Source: Anaerolineae bacterium (GTDB lineage: Bacteria > Chloroflexota > Anaerolineae > DTLA01). Taken from it: 36,691 nucleotides of DNA. The DNA is taken from the NCBI GenBank assembly GCA_029907165.1, contig JARYMK010000008.1, forward strand, positions 1 to 36,691, in the 5' to 3' direction. Both the position numbers and the translations under genes were made by a program. Shown in pieces: positions 32,439 through 36,691 of the stretch. The notes under the pieces are model-generated. The model searched no databases. It was not told the DNA's origin and worked only from the letters and a program-made list of their open reading frames with translations. Position 1 is the first letter of the stretch; every line of letters starts with the position of its first letter.

Positions 32439-33050
32439 CTACGGCTTGCGAATCGGCTGGCGGATGACCGTCTTCAACTTGTCTGGTGCGGTGCGCCCTG
32501 GGTCGCCCAGGTAAATCTCATGGTGTTTGCCGTGGCCGACGTACCCGTTGGCGCGGATGAACTCGTGCATGCGGGCGATGGTCGGCCCCTCGTCCGCATA
32601 GGCTCCGATGTACAGAATCTGTACCGATAGGCCCTCGTGGTACGCCTCAAACCGCACGCGGGGCAGGGCTGGCGGGTTGCGCTTGCGCGCGAGTTCGGCG
32701 CGGGCCTTGTCCACCCCCTCGGCCGTAACAGGCGGCGGCTGCATGATCATCAGCGTCCAGTGCCAGGCCGACTTGTCGGTGGATGTGATGTCGCTCCCCG
32801 CGGGCGACCACCACAGCCCCTCCAACGGTGGGACGGTGTACTCTACCCCCTGGGCCTTCAGCGCGAACTTTAGCCTGTAGGCGAGACCATAGAGTGCGTT
32901 CACAACCTCCTGGAAGTCCGCGCTCGTGTTCGGGTCGCCGCTCCCGTCGGCCATCAGGAAGTTCATCGGTGGCACGTCCACGATGGTGAAATCCCTGGCC
33001 GAGGGCAGGTAGAGGTGCTTCAGGTCCTTCTTGTAATCCATCTTGGGCAT
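32439..33050 (-). CDS. GyrI-like small-molecule-binding protein
   Basis: 203 aa. ATG at 33050 is preceded by AGGAGG. The start KKDLKHLYLPSARDFTIVDVPPMNFLMADG and the later HWTLMIMQPP and HEIYLGDP segments are typical of the GyrI-like family of about 200 aa (YndB/SbmC relatives), a SHS2 fold that binds hydrophobic small molecules and in some members hydrolyses cyclopropanoids. No DNA-binding domain is attached. It is divergent from argG with about 170 nt between promoters. Confidence 0.85.
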   Translation of the reverse strand: MPKMDYKKDLKHLYLPSARDFTIVDVPPMNFLMADGSGDPNTSADFQEVVNALYGLAYRLKFALKAQGVEYTVPPLEGLWWSPAGSDITSTDKSAWHWTLMIMQPPPVTAEGVDKARAELARKRNPPALPRVRFEAYHEGLSVQILYIGAYADEGPTIARMHEFIRANGYVGHGKHHEIYLGDPGRTAPDKLKTVIRQPIRKP

Positions 33051-33089
33051 GGTCGCCTCCTTGCGCCGGATGTCGGTCGGCGCGCCTCC

Positions 33090-33118
33090 ATGAAAGCAGA
33101 ACTCGGCGCGAGCGTCAA
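33090..33118 (-). promoter_or_regulatory. Possible promoter of the GyrI-like gene
   Basis: On the minus strand TTGACG (33118-33113), a 17-nt spacer and a poor TTTCAT (33095-33090). Confidence 0.35.
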
Positions 33119-33219
33119 GGACGCGGTGTACAGGTTCGCCGAGACCGCGGAGACCACACAGGAATATTGCGAAGAGCAGGCCGACGGTCGGGCGCACTCC
33201 GTGCGGCACGGGCGGAAAA

Positions 33220-33248
33220 TTGACAATCTCCGCCTTCCGGTGTAGATT
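33220..33248 (+). promoter_or_regulatory. Promoter of the argG leader transcript
   Basis: TTGACA (33220-33225), a 17-nt spacer and TAGATT (33243-33248). The start near 33255 leaves a leader of about 238 nt before argG, long enough for attenuation. Confidence 0.75.
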
Positions 33249-33278
33249 TAGGCAACCTATTCTGACGGATGCGCTCGC

Positions 33279-33353
33279 ATGAACATCGGCACAATGCCAG
33301 CATCCGAAATCCGACGACGAACGGACGAGAGGTCAGACCCCGCGTCTGGATAG
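33279..33353 (+). CDS. Arginine-rich leader peptide of argG
   Basis: A 24-codon frame begins with ATG 33279 and ends with TAG 33351-33353. It has consecutive CGA CGA CGA (codons 12-14, 33312-33320) and AGG at codon 18. It lies just after the promoter and before a terminator, which is the placement of leader peptides such as those of his or trp. The upstream GACGGA is a weak ribosome site. An overlapping frame from ATG 33269 (34 codons) also has six Arg codons, but no run of them. The reading as a control peptide is inferred. Confidence 0.6.
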   Translation: MNIGTMPASEIRRRTDERSDPASG

Positions 33354-33417
33354 TTCCGTTCGCCTTGCAATAGGGATATACGGCCAGCCTCCAGACAGGG
33401 GGCTGGCCTTTCTATTT
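33318..33417 (+). promoter_or_regulatory. argG leader: argG transcription attenuator
   Basis: The terminator stem GGCCAGCCTCC (33382-33392) with GGGGGCTGGCC (33398-33408), loop AGACA, is followed by TTTCTATTT. The Arg-codon segment CGAACGGA (33318-33325) pairs with TCCGTTCG (33355-33362). GTCTGGA (33344-33350) pairs with TCCAGAC (33390-33396), part of the terminator upper stem. A ribosome stalled at the CGA codons would free the middle segment to pair forward; one that reaches the stop would block it and let the terminator form. The pairs are seen; the mechanism is inferred. Confidence 0.65.
33382..33417 (+). terminator. Leader terminator before argG
   Basis: An 11-bp stem (with one T:G pair), 5-nt loop, then TTTCTATTT. 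It lies 75 nt before the argG ATG. Confidence 0.82.
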
Positions 33418-33443
33418 GGCGCGATGGGGATGCCCGTCGCGCC
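33418..33443 (+). other. Second hairpin after the leader terminator
   Basis: GGCGCGA (33418-33424) pairs with TCGCGCC (33437-33443), followed by TTTGCG. It could back up the terminator or set the position of the ribosome site. Confidence 0.4.
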
Positions 33444-33492
33444 TTTGCGTACCCAGAAGACACCCGAATAACCGCGACAGGAGGGGGAAAAG

Positions 33493-34758
33493 ATGAAGAA
33501 AGGCAAGGTCAACAAAGTGGTTCTGGCGTACTCGGGCGGGCTGGACACGTCCTGCATCGCGCCCTGGCTCAAGGAGAACTACGGCTGCGAGGTGATCACC
33601 TTCACCGCCGACCTGGGGCAGGGGGCCGACGAACTGGCCGGCCTGGAGCAGAAGGCGCTGGCGAGCGGGGCCAGCAAGGCGTACATCGTGGACCTGCGCG
33701 AGGAGTTCCTGATGGAGTATGCCTTCCGCACCATGCGTGCGGGCGCCATCTATGAGCGGCTGTACCTGCTCGGAACGTCATTCGCCCGGCCCGTTACCGC
33801 CAAGCACCTGGTGAAGGTGGCCAAGCAGGAGGGGGCCGACGCCGTGGCTCACGGCTGCACCGGCAAGGGCAACGACCAGGTGCGGTTTGAACTATCGGTC
33901 AAGGCGCTGAACCCGCACCTGAAGGTCATCGCCCCGTGGCGCGAGTGGGAGATTCGGTCGCGCGAGGATGCCCTGGCCTACGCCCGCGCTCATAACGTGC
34001 CCGTGGCCGTTACCGAGAAGTCCATCTATAGCCGCGACCGCAGCCTGTGGCACATCAGCCACGAGGGCGGCGTGCTGGAAGACCCCTGGGCCGAGCCCGA
34101 GGAGTCCATGTTTATGCTCACGGTCGCGCCCGAGGCGGCCCCCGACACGCCCCAGTACATCACGCTGAAGTTTGAGCGCGGGTACCCGGTGGCGGTGGAC
34201 GGCGAGGCACTGGGGCCGGTGCAGATTCTGGAGCGGCTGAACGACATCGGCGGCGCGCACGGCGTGGGCCGCGTGGACCTGGTGGAGAACCGCCTGGTGG
34301 GGATGAAGTCGCGGGGTGTGTACGAAACGCCCGGCGGCACAATCCTGTACACGGCACACCAGGGGCTGGAGCAGATTTGTCTGGACCGCGAGACGCTGCA
34401 TTACAAGGAACTGGTCGCGCATCGCTACGCCGAACTGGTTTACTATGGCCAGTGGTTCACGCCGTTGCGCGAGGCGCTGGACGCCTTCGTGGACAAGACG
34501 CAGGAGCGCGTTACCGGCAGCGTGCGGGTCAAACTGTACAAAGGCTCCTGTACGGTGGTCGGGCGCAAGTCGCCGTTCAGCCTGTACCGCGAGGATTTCG
34601 CCACCTTCGGCAAGGACGACGTGTACGACCAGAGCGACGCCCAGGGGTTCATCAACCTGTTCGGCCTGCCGATGAAGGTGAAGGCGCTGCTGGACATGGA
34701 GAACGGCTGGGCGGCCGGCCTGGAGCGCCCCGACTACAGCCGCTTCAAGCGGGATTAG
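33493..34758 (+). CDS. argG: Argininosuccinate synthase
   Basis: 421 aa. It joins citrulline and aspartate with ATP in the last-but-one step of arginine synthesis. The ATP-binding N-type loop AYSGGLDTS is at 12-20, the [14 protein letters not shown] citrulline/ATP motif is near 119-132, and [17 protein letters not shown] follows. AGGAGGGGG lies upstream of ATG. No argH or other arg gene is nearby; the gene is controlled alone through a 238-nt leader with an arginine-rich peptide. No terminator is seen after the stop; a palindrome cluster begins about 5 nt later. Confidence 0.97.
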
Positions 34759-35119: not shown

Positions 35120-36691
35120 TCATTCTAGTTCGTCCACATCAAACTCGCTCAGGATACGATCCAGCTCTTCTGACTCCATTTCCAGGATTTCGTTGTTCCG
35201 GGCTCGTGGAACGTAAGAGGAGGAGCCGCAGGGCTCAAGGTTAGGATTGAGGCTGAGTGCCATCATTACGCTTGACTCTCGGACAAATCTGCGGCGTTTC
35301 GCGATTTCCGCGACCACAACGGTGCAGGGAACTGGCCTGCCGGTACGTTCAAACATGTCCCGGACCACATTAGCCGTCTCTTCAAGGAGGCCTTCGTCTG
35401 GGCGCTGGTATCCCCAGTCCTCTAGAGCATACACACCTTTTGATCCCACCCACACAACGCCTTTCTGCTGACGAAGGAGAGTCGCATGTATTGCGCGTTC
35501 GGAGCAGGGTTTTTCTGGGAATAGGGACATGTAGGCGCGGAATATCTCGGAATAATGTGCTGGTGCCCCAATGCTTTCCAATGCAGCCCGGACACGATCT
35601 GAGAGTTTCATATGGTTACAACGGTAAGATATGACCGCACGCACTAGAACGAGAATAGCCTCCTTTGGCAGGGGAGGGTGGAATTGCTTATCAAGGGCAC
35701 TGCCGAGTGCTTGTTCGTCCAGTGGTGCGGCCTTCACATACTGAGCGAGATCGCTCGGCGGTTGACTTCCCAGGAGAGCCAGAGGGAGCGGATTGAGCAC
35801 GTTGAAGGGCACCCCTGTGCATTTTGCAGCAAATCGTAGATGGGCCTCTTGCGTCAAATCCTCAAGTGGGATGACCGGATTCCCACGGTTGGCCATTATG
35901 AGTCGTAGGAGGTAACCATCGTATCTAGCCGCACGAATAGGGTGCCGGGCTTTTATCCAAAAGCGATCTTCAAGCTGGCGCACGCGTTCTCGCGAGACAC
36001 CCATGCGGCCGCCAATCTCCTGAAGAGTAGCCGGTCGCTCACCGCCAAGGCCTTCTCGGGCAATCGCTACGTTGGCGAGCGGGGAAGGAAACTCAGATAA
36101 ATCGCAGTGCACCTCCCTGACCAGATGTTGCAGTATGTCATCAGCTTGCGAGAGTGACTCCAGGGGCTGCTCCTTCAGTTCGTGATGCAACTGCCTCTGC
36201 CGCAAGGGAGACAGGTGGCGGAGAACACCCGCAATGGGAAACACTATCGCTCCTCTTCGCCAAGCGGGGCAGCAGAGGCCGAATTGTTGACCGTATTCAA
36301 GCACCTTTCCCGGCAATTTCCGGAACTCGCACGAACAGTGAGCTCCCAAGAGACGCGCCAACTGCTTCTGGCGTAGACGGAAAATGCGGGCTGCCGCTAA
36401 CCCGAAGTTTATGCCTAACAGCCACCGTTGAAGGTGCTCGCGGCGGATGTAGAACAGGCCGTCAGGGCCAGCCGCCCCGCGAAGGGCAATGAAACCCAAT
36501 TGTGTTTCCAAGACGTGCGAGACGATTCGGGCATCTAGGGGCAGGCTCAGATGACTCATGATGTCGTCAATCGTAACGACTGGCCCCTGAAATAGCAGTG
36601 TCTCCAGAGCAATGGTGAGGTTGGCCCCATTCTTTGGACCACGGATCGGCCAAAATAAGGTGGATCCCCACCCCTCCGACTTGGGCACGCA
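35120..36691 (-). CDS. Sigma-region-4/HARE-HTH domain protein (5' end beyond the window)
   Basis: The frame is open to the right edge. A GTG at 36688 is available, but the true start may lie outside. At least 522 codons. Near 219-250 a sigma-70 region 4-like helix-turn-helix, PATLQEIGGRMGVSRERVRQ, is followed by a helical region. Residues 361-425 (KLSDRVRAALESIGAPAHYS ... VWVGSKGVYALEDWG) fit a HARE-HTH domain, known from RNA polymerase delta and from proteins linked to DNA modification. The tail is acidic (EMESEELDRILSEFDVDELE). No catalytic domain is visible. It probably binds DNA or RNA polymerase; the role is unknown. Base composition looks lower in GC than its neighbours. Confidence 0.75.
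   Translation of the reverse strand, partial: CVPKSEGWGSTLFWPIRGPKNGANLTIALETLLFQGPVVTIDDIMSHLSLPLDARIVSHVLETQLGFIALRGAAGPDGLFYIRREHLQRWLLGINFGLAAARIFRLRQKQLARLLGAHCSCEFRKLPGKVLEYGQQFGLCCPAWRRGAIVFPIAGVLRHLSPLRQRQLHHELKEQPLESLSQADDILQHLVREVHCDLSEFPSPLANVAIAREGLGGERPATLQEIGGRMGVSRERVRQLEDRFWIKARHPIRAARYDGYLLRLIMANRGNPVIPLEDLTQEAHLRFAAKCTGVPFNVLNPLPLALLGSQPPSDLAQYVKAAPLDEQALGSALDKQFHPPLPKEAILVLVRAVISYRCNHMKLSDRVRAALESIGAPAHYSEIFRAYMSLFPEKPCSERAIHATLLRQQKGVVWVGSKGVYALEDWGYQRPDEGLLEETANVVRDMFERTGRPVPCTVVVAEIAKRRRFVRESSVMMALSLNPNLEPCGSSSYVPRARNNEILEMESEELDRILSEFDVDELE

Follow-up and report, generated by a model that had tools for sequence, protein, structure and literature searches.

How does a bacterium of the Anaerolineae adjust transcription of argG, the argininosuccinate synthase gene, to its supply of arginine? 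Bacterial arginine control has been described mostly through the ArgR repressor (or through T-boxes), and lysine control through the lysine riboswitch. In the window analyzed here, the whole 36,691-nucleotide stretch of DNA, argG (33493..34758, forward strand, as are all leader features below; NCBIfam NF001770 at 629.8 bits versus a cut-off of 334, TIGR00032 at 519 bits) follows a leader for which a sequence-only reading had proposed attenuation of the his/trp type, applied to arginine. A ribosome-mediated attenuator is expected to combine a short leader frame, placed between the promoter and the controlled gene and holding clustered codons for that gene's amino acid, an intrinsic terminator before the gene, an antiterminator that excludes the terminator and is conserved with covariation, and a choice of fold set by the position of the ribosome. 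With a probability of roughly 0.9, we consider that the argG leader senses charged arginyl-tRNA as a ribosome-mediated transcription attenuator and belongs to a Chloroflexota-wide leader family whose members differ in their test codons. This reading rests on sequence, conservation, covariation, the match between codons and genes, and a predicted switch.

A consensus scan places a sigma-70-type promoter at 33220..33248 (TTGACA, a 17-nt spacer and TAGATT, 10/12 matches), where the earlier reading had also seen one, and TTGACA-like boxes lie upstream of the leaders of genomes G001, G002, G007 and others too. Between promoter and argG, direct reading gives the noted 24-codon frame MNIGTMPASEIRRRTDERSDPASG* at 33279..33353 (start ATG at 33279, stop TAG at 33351-33353), which has orthologous frames in other families and is predicted to be translated, with a weak Shine-Dalgarno sequence. 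The frame carries the arginine test codons CGA CGA CGA at 33312..33320, which stand out against codon use in the window genes, and a fourth arginine codon, AGG, at 33330-33332. Before argG lies the intrinsic terminator GGCCAGCCUCC-AGACA-GGGGGCUGGCC with the T-rich tail UUUCUAUUU (33382..33417): 33382-33392 pairs with 33398-33408 in an 11-pair stem, then comes TTTCTATTT. The earlier reading did not include a second hairpin, GCGCGAUGG..CCGUCGCGC at 33419..33442, which is conserved in argG leaders only (n=12). This element (GCGCGATGG..CCGTCGCGC, after the attenuator terminator) is unique in its own genome and recurs in 12 argG leaders from several families, and its outer pair (GCGCGAUGG..CCAUCGCGC) varies among G-C, A-U and U-A. 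The window belongs to a metagenome-assembled genome of the Chloroflexota (Anaerolineae-type), and among named argG records the closest is that of "Chloroflexi bacterium isolate Tumba.bins.16". The neighbors of argG, both on the reverse strand, encode a protein with a sigma-70 region 4 domain (35120-36688) and a GyrI-like small-molecule-binding protein (32439-33077).

Folding of the leader RNA recovers alternative pairings and is more stable than that of shuffled sequences (z -4.4 to -4.6, 0/200 shuffles as good). The proposed 8-bp pairing is complementary throughout and forms the anti-antiterminator, with its 5' strand at 33318..33325 overlapping the last CGA and its 3' strand at 33355..33362 lying immediately 3' of the stop codon. 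Complementarity likewise holds for the noted pairing of 33344-33350 with 33390-33396 in the terminator arm and loop; the strand involved is the 3' arm (33344-33349, pairing with loop positions 33391-33396) of a small hairpin at the end of the frame, UCAGAC-CCCGC-GUCUGG at 33333..33349, which appears in the RNAalifold consensus and in almost every leader that belongs to the family. That pairing is only one part of the antiterminator, and the sequence-only reading had overlooked the dominant helix, in which AGAGGUCAG (33328..33336) pairs with CUGGCCUUU (33403..33411), stacked outside the 33344-33349/33391-33396 helix in the minimum free energy fold. Because CUGGCCUUU consists of the terminator 3' arm and the start of the U-tract, the antiterminator is larger than had been described and takes these elements in addition to the loop.

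Both exclusive folds are conserved with covariation. In an alignment of eight argG leaders, about 93-95.8% of antiterminator cells are paired, and columns 29:121 and 30:120 show compensatory A-U/G-C changes; column 120 has a second partner, column 91 of the terminator, where the same change is found, so that three positions covary. The terminator is paired in 100% of cells, also with compensatory changes (0/500 shuffles), and slid controls for the antiterminator and terminator alignments went down to 27-59% and 32-66%. Since the register of the anti-antiterminator shifts between species, this helix was judged by partner swap rather than by column covariation. Swapping partner strands within the same gene class weakened all helices, with z -7.4 for the anti-antiterminator, -6.8 for the antiterminator and -16.1 for the terminator (70 non-redundant leaders from related genomes, the z values not being probabilities).

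The leader is kept in two genomes of the same genus and in the distant genome G007, and orthologous frames upstream of argG read MNVMPAVEIRRRADERSDPASG, MNICSTAIVNDIKRRPEEEPDCPSG, ..MNIASRRRNEEEPDHPSG, ..NRRRPKEPVSPSG, ..DVRRARVEPDSPPG and ..VIRRRLTKKPDPQSG, each with GUCUGGAUAG, or a closely similar sequence, and then a terminator behind it. In other families, the argG leader frames end in ..RR..PDxxSG*. Conservation of the short frame and its arginine codons, together with covarying pairs, was the check that the sequence-only reading had named, and both are found: frame and codons are kept in 19 argG leaders from many families, with at least two arginine codons close upstream of the stop. 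Most of these are CGA, a codon uncommon elsewhere (44 of 68 arginine codons in argG leaders versus 12% in window genes). Frame, codons and folds recur upstream of argG across other families of the class, which indicates that the feature is not due to chance. Outside the phylum, some 60 argG loci were compared, and the element was absent before argG. Two metagenome-assembled genomes (L022 and L024) have another short frame, ending in RRRLRRA* about 120-200 bases upstream of argG and lacking the core, which is possibly an independent arginine leader and was not counted in the family.

From these data we infer translation of the frame, stalling of the ribosome and arginine-dependent termination, as follows. 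With ample arginine, the ribosome would pass CGA CGA CGA and reach the stop codon, where it would cover or be past the antiterminator strand 33328-33349, so that the terminator (33382-33408) would form and transcription would end before argG. With arginine in short supply, it would stall at the CGA codons and mask the anti-antiterminator 5' strand 33318-33325, leaving about 33331-33349 free to pair with the terminator loop, 3' arm and U-tract, and the polymerase would continue into argG. We modeled these states crudely, by equilibrium folding with no kinetics and with a fixed ribosome footprint that begins at the first A-site base and spans 13 nt. In this folding model the ribosome position selects the fold: for a ribosome held at CGA12 or CGA14, the predicted probability of the terminator in the window leader is 0.00, and for one at AGG18 or the stop codon it is 1.00. 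Among 18 argG leaders, its mean is 0.32 in the stalled state versus 0.97 at the stop; 12 of the 18 switch, and six are without a clear switch in the equilibrium model. Switching is less clear in other gene classes (argC 8/25, homocitrate synthase 5/16, lysX 6/19, proS 6/15, glnA 0/2). For the ribosome-free window leader, the model favors the antiterminator (equilibrium terminator probability 0.00, compared to a mean of 0.80 for argG leaders), and this modeled antitermination departs from the textbook attenuator and from most relatives. The equilibrium treatment disregards a possible earlier formation of the antiterminator; the ribosome-free state could be rescued only if the 8-bp anti-antiterminator folded during transcription. 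Taken together, conservation, compensatory changes and the modeled switch support the logic of his/trp-type attenuation proposed for arginine.

To survey relatives, we built a covariance model, R1, from eight argG leaders; among 396 genomes from the class, 106 give a match, with more than 100 leaders in Anaerolineae. The 110 matches that were read out share a common core of hairpin and terminator upstream of differing genes (identified by tblastn and NCBIfam/Pfam), with the codons altered accordingly. Arginine-coded leaders precede argG (CGA-rich), argC (AGG AGG AGC CGC AGG, or RRSRR), one carA and the lysX-type (argX-type) ligases of one clade; in argC leaders, AGG accounts for 49 of 93 arginine codons, versus 7.7% in window genes. 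Lysine-coded leaders precede homocitrate synthase (e.g., TKKSKAKKPDLRSG) and lysX (TKKQKKEKKPDAHSG), and proline-coded leaders precede proS of both families (NPPCPVEPSDKPDLRSG in L170) and a metallophosphoesterase/MazG gene pair. In L189 this pair is followed by proS behind a proline-coded leader, and mazG, the calcineurin-like phosphoesterase and proS form a putative operon with proline-coded leaders in several genomes. Two glnA genes with glutamine-coded leaders (VQQQQQQCHPGGVG in L180) tentatively suggest a glutamine specificity. A second model, R2, matches 84 of 400 genomes phylum-wide, closed genomes from other classes among them; lysine codons stand before homocitrate synthase and homoaconitase and arginine codons before argG. 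Weak R2 matches in the window's own genome (L240, L241 and L243; E 2.8e-5 to 0.35) are terminators after ordinary genes, or chance, and weak model matches alone were therefore not counted as leaders. A search of the same genome for argC with a 100-aa piece gave no match, which is no proof of absence.

The codons follow the genes. In a test with 100 leaders, in which frames were picked without knowledge of the gene, scoring covered the 18 residues preceding the frame end and gene labels were permuted, the fraction of the cognate amino acid was 0.202 versus 0.113 after permutation (z 10.5 in frame, -2.3 in the +1 frame and 3.4 in the +2 frame; these permutation z values disregard genome relatedness and are not probabilities). 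CGA CGA CGA before argG is the window's instance of a codon cluster for the amino acid of the controlled gene. In a tree of 21 LysX-type proteins, four with arginine-coded leaders form one clade (support 100/99) apart from 14 with lysine-coded leaders, and three near-identical sequences with mixed codons are placed elsewhere. Other genes also stand behind core leaders. A LysE-type translocator gene lies directly downstream in L227 (lysine codons) and L236 (glutamine codons); a starvation-induced LysE-type exporter would be odd, and the lysine leader of L227 is puzzling if it induces on starvation. In L168 the gene is a citrate synthase, with the frame QPKQPQPKPPYP..MPSG.

This match between codons and genes bears on two other accounts of the leader. 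Under the first, the terminator and hairpins are constitutive and the short frame is incidental or serves translation only (reinitiation, Rho protection), with no sensing of amino acids. Such an arrangement is compatible with the family members that show no switch in the model, but it predicts neither the gene-matched, in-frame enrichment of cognate codons, nor a conserved antiterminator with compensatory changes, nor the partner-swap results, and we regard it as highly improbable. Under the second, the nascent peptide RRR..PDxxSG, together with free arginine or another ligand, would stall the ribosome, much like fungal arginine attenuator peptides and bacterial SpeFL. In its favor, the C-terminal PDxxSG* is strongly conserved in argG and lysine leaders; these residues are, however, encoded by the conserved RNA hairpin CCAGAC..GUCUGG-UAG. 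Three argC leaders (L111-L113) stop before this hairpin and four proS leaders (L134, L139, L155 and L162) stop inside it, and all of them keep the RNA hairpin. In addition, the test residues vary with the gene, which fits the sensing of codons better than that of a single ligand. An arrest-peptide switch therefore has very little probability in our assessment, and codon sensing by ribosome-mediated attenuation remains the preferred reading of the argG leader.

The ArgR domain PF01316 was not detected in the window's own genome (G000, 98% complete), so no repressor for an ArgR regulon was found encoded there. Across the class, only four of 396 genomes were above the cut-off, all from one genus and with partial matches, whereas control genomes do match; ArgR is practically absent from the class. 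The earlier reading had called leader-peptide control of argG unusual given the customary role of ArgR. The leader is one case within a phylum-wide family serving several amino acids.

A different sensor acting on the same terminator, e.g., an arginine T-box or a small-molecule riboswitch, gains some plausibility from the use of T-boxes elsewhere in the genome, where seven matches were found, six of them outside the ileS site. The match in the window (RF00230, 104.8 bits, above the cut-off, 594-839 on the forward strand) lies directly upstream of ileS. The T-box model RF00230 gave no match within 32500-34000 at E<=5, and no Rfam family matches the argG leader or any of 20 core-bearing relatives; the leader's matches to ROSE, ncS54 and others were rejected, with scores far below the gathering score. 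Moreover, upstream of the antiterminator the conservation is that of a coding frame and not of an aptamer. This alternative is accordingly extremely unlikely. Collectively, we think it likely that the Chloroflexota, largely without ArgR, use one modular attenuator scaffold whose test codons have been exchanged among arginine, lysine, proline and perhaps glutamine; its targets would be biosynthetic genes, a proline tRNA-ligase operon and possibly a transporter.

If so, the whole phylum appears to sense arginine and lysine through the translation of short frames that sit on a shared RNA scaffold, with specificity set by codon swap. The codon-swapped leaders would provide a natural series for studying the evolution and re-targeting of attenuators, and the leader codons may reveal the products of ambiguous enzymes, such as LysX/ArgX ligases. 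Closed genomes carry the family, and culturable strains should therefore allow testing. In the open-access literature searched, we found neither leader-peptide attenuators in Chloroflexota nor intrinsic attenuators of arginine, lysine or proline biosynthesis reported, and leader-peptide switches in Chloroflexota seem hitherto undescribed. If the reading is true, these are the first such attenuators in Chloroflexota and, within the literature searched, the first intrinsic-terminator attenuators for lysine and proline.

Several described systems share parts of this arrangement. A 2005 survey of Actinobacteria predicted leader peptides and terminators before amino-acid genes (trp, leuS, ilvB, cys), similarly to the leaders described here, reported arginine and lysine operons there to have no conserved upstream RNA structures, and assigned T-boxes and L-boxes to such operons elsewhere (PMC1262725). 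According to a 2010 survey, leader peptides had been known from Proteobacteria and Actinobacteria only, before a case in Firmicutes; the hisS/hisZ leaders of bacilli are likewise attenuators outside Proteobacteria that control an aminoacyl-tRNA synthetase gene, although for histidine and in Firmicutes (PMC2965389). The speF leader orf34 (SpeFL) of Salmonella responds to arginine, in that pausing at consecutive arginine codons alters the downstream mRNA structure, but there ornithine decarboxylase is governed by way of Rho, RNase G and the ribosome-binding site, and no intrinsic terminator ahead of a gene for arginine biosynthesis is involved (PMC6386406). The carA leader of Pseudomonas aeruginosa also has a leader peptide and a proposed attenuation before carbamoyl-phosphate synthase, whereas the part of PMC4997734 that cites it ascribes attenuation to pyrimidines and arginine control to transcription with ArgR sites. 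T-boxes and the lysine riboswitch (L-box) act on genes of the same kinds, in part through transcription termination, but they sense uncharged tRNA or lysine directly, with no frame translated, and neither matches the argG leader.

Ribosome-mediated attenuation is classical in the his, trp, leu, ilv, thr and phe operons of Proteobacteria, and, judged from sequence comparison, the best reading of the present family is this same mechanism in a new phylum, with arginine, lysine and proline specificities. Common to both are a short frame with cognate codons, alternative antiterminator and terminator hairpins and the control of biosynthetic genes, in addition to the occasional control of aminoacyl-tRNA synthetase genes (proS here, compare pheST). 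The Chloroflexota leaders differ from their proteobacterial counterparts in serving arginine, lysine and proline (glutamine tentatively), in building on a single RNA core with interchangeable test codons, and in a two-part antiterminator pairing whose 5' strand lies within the coding frame.
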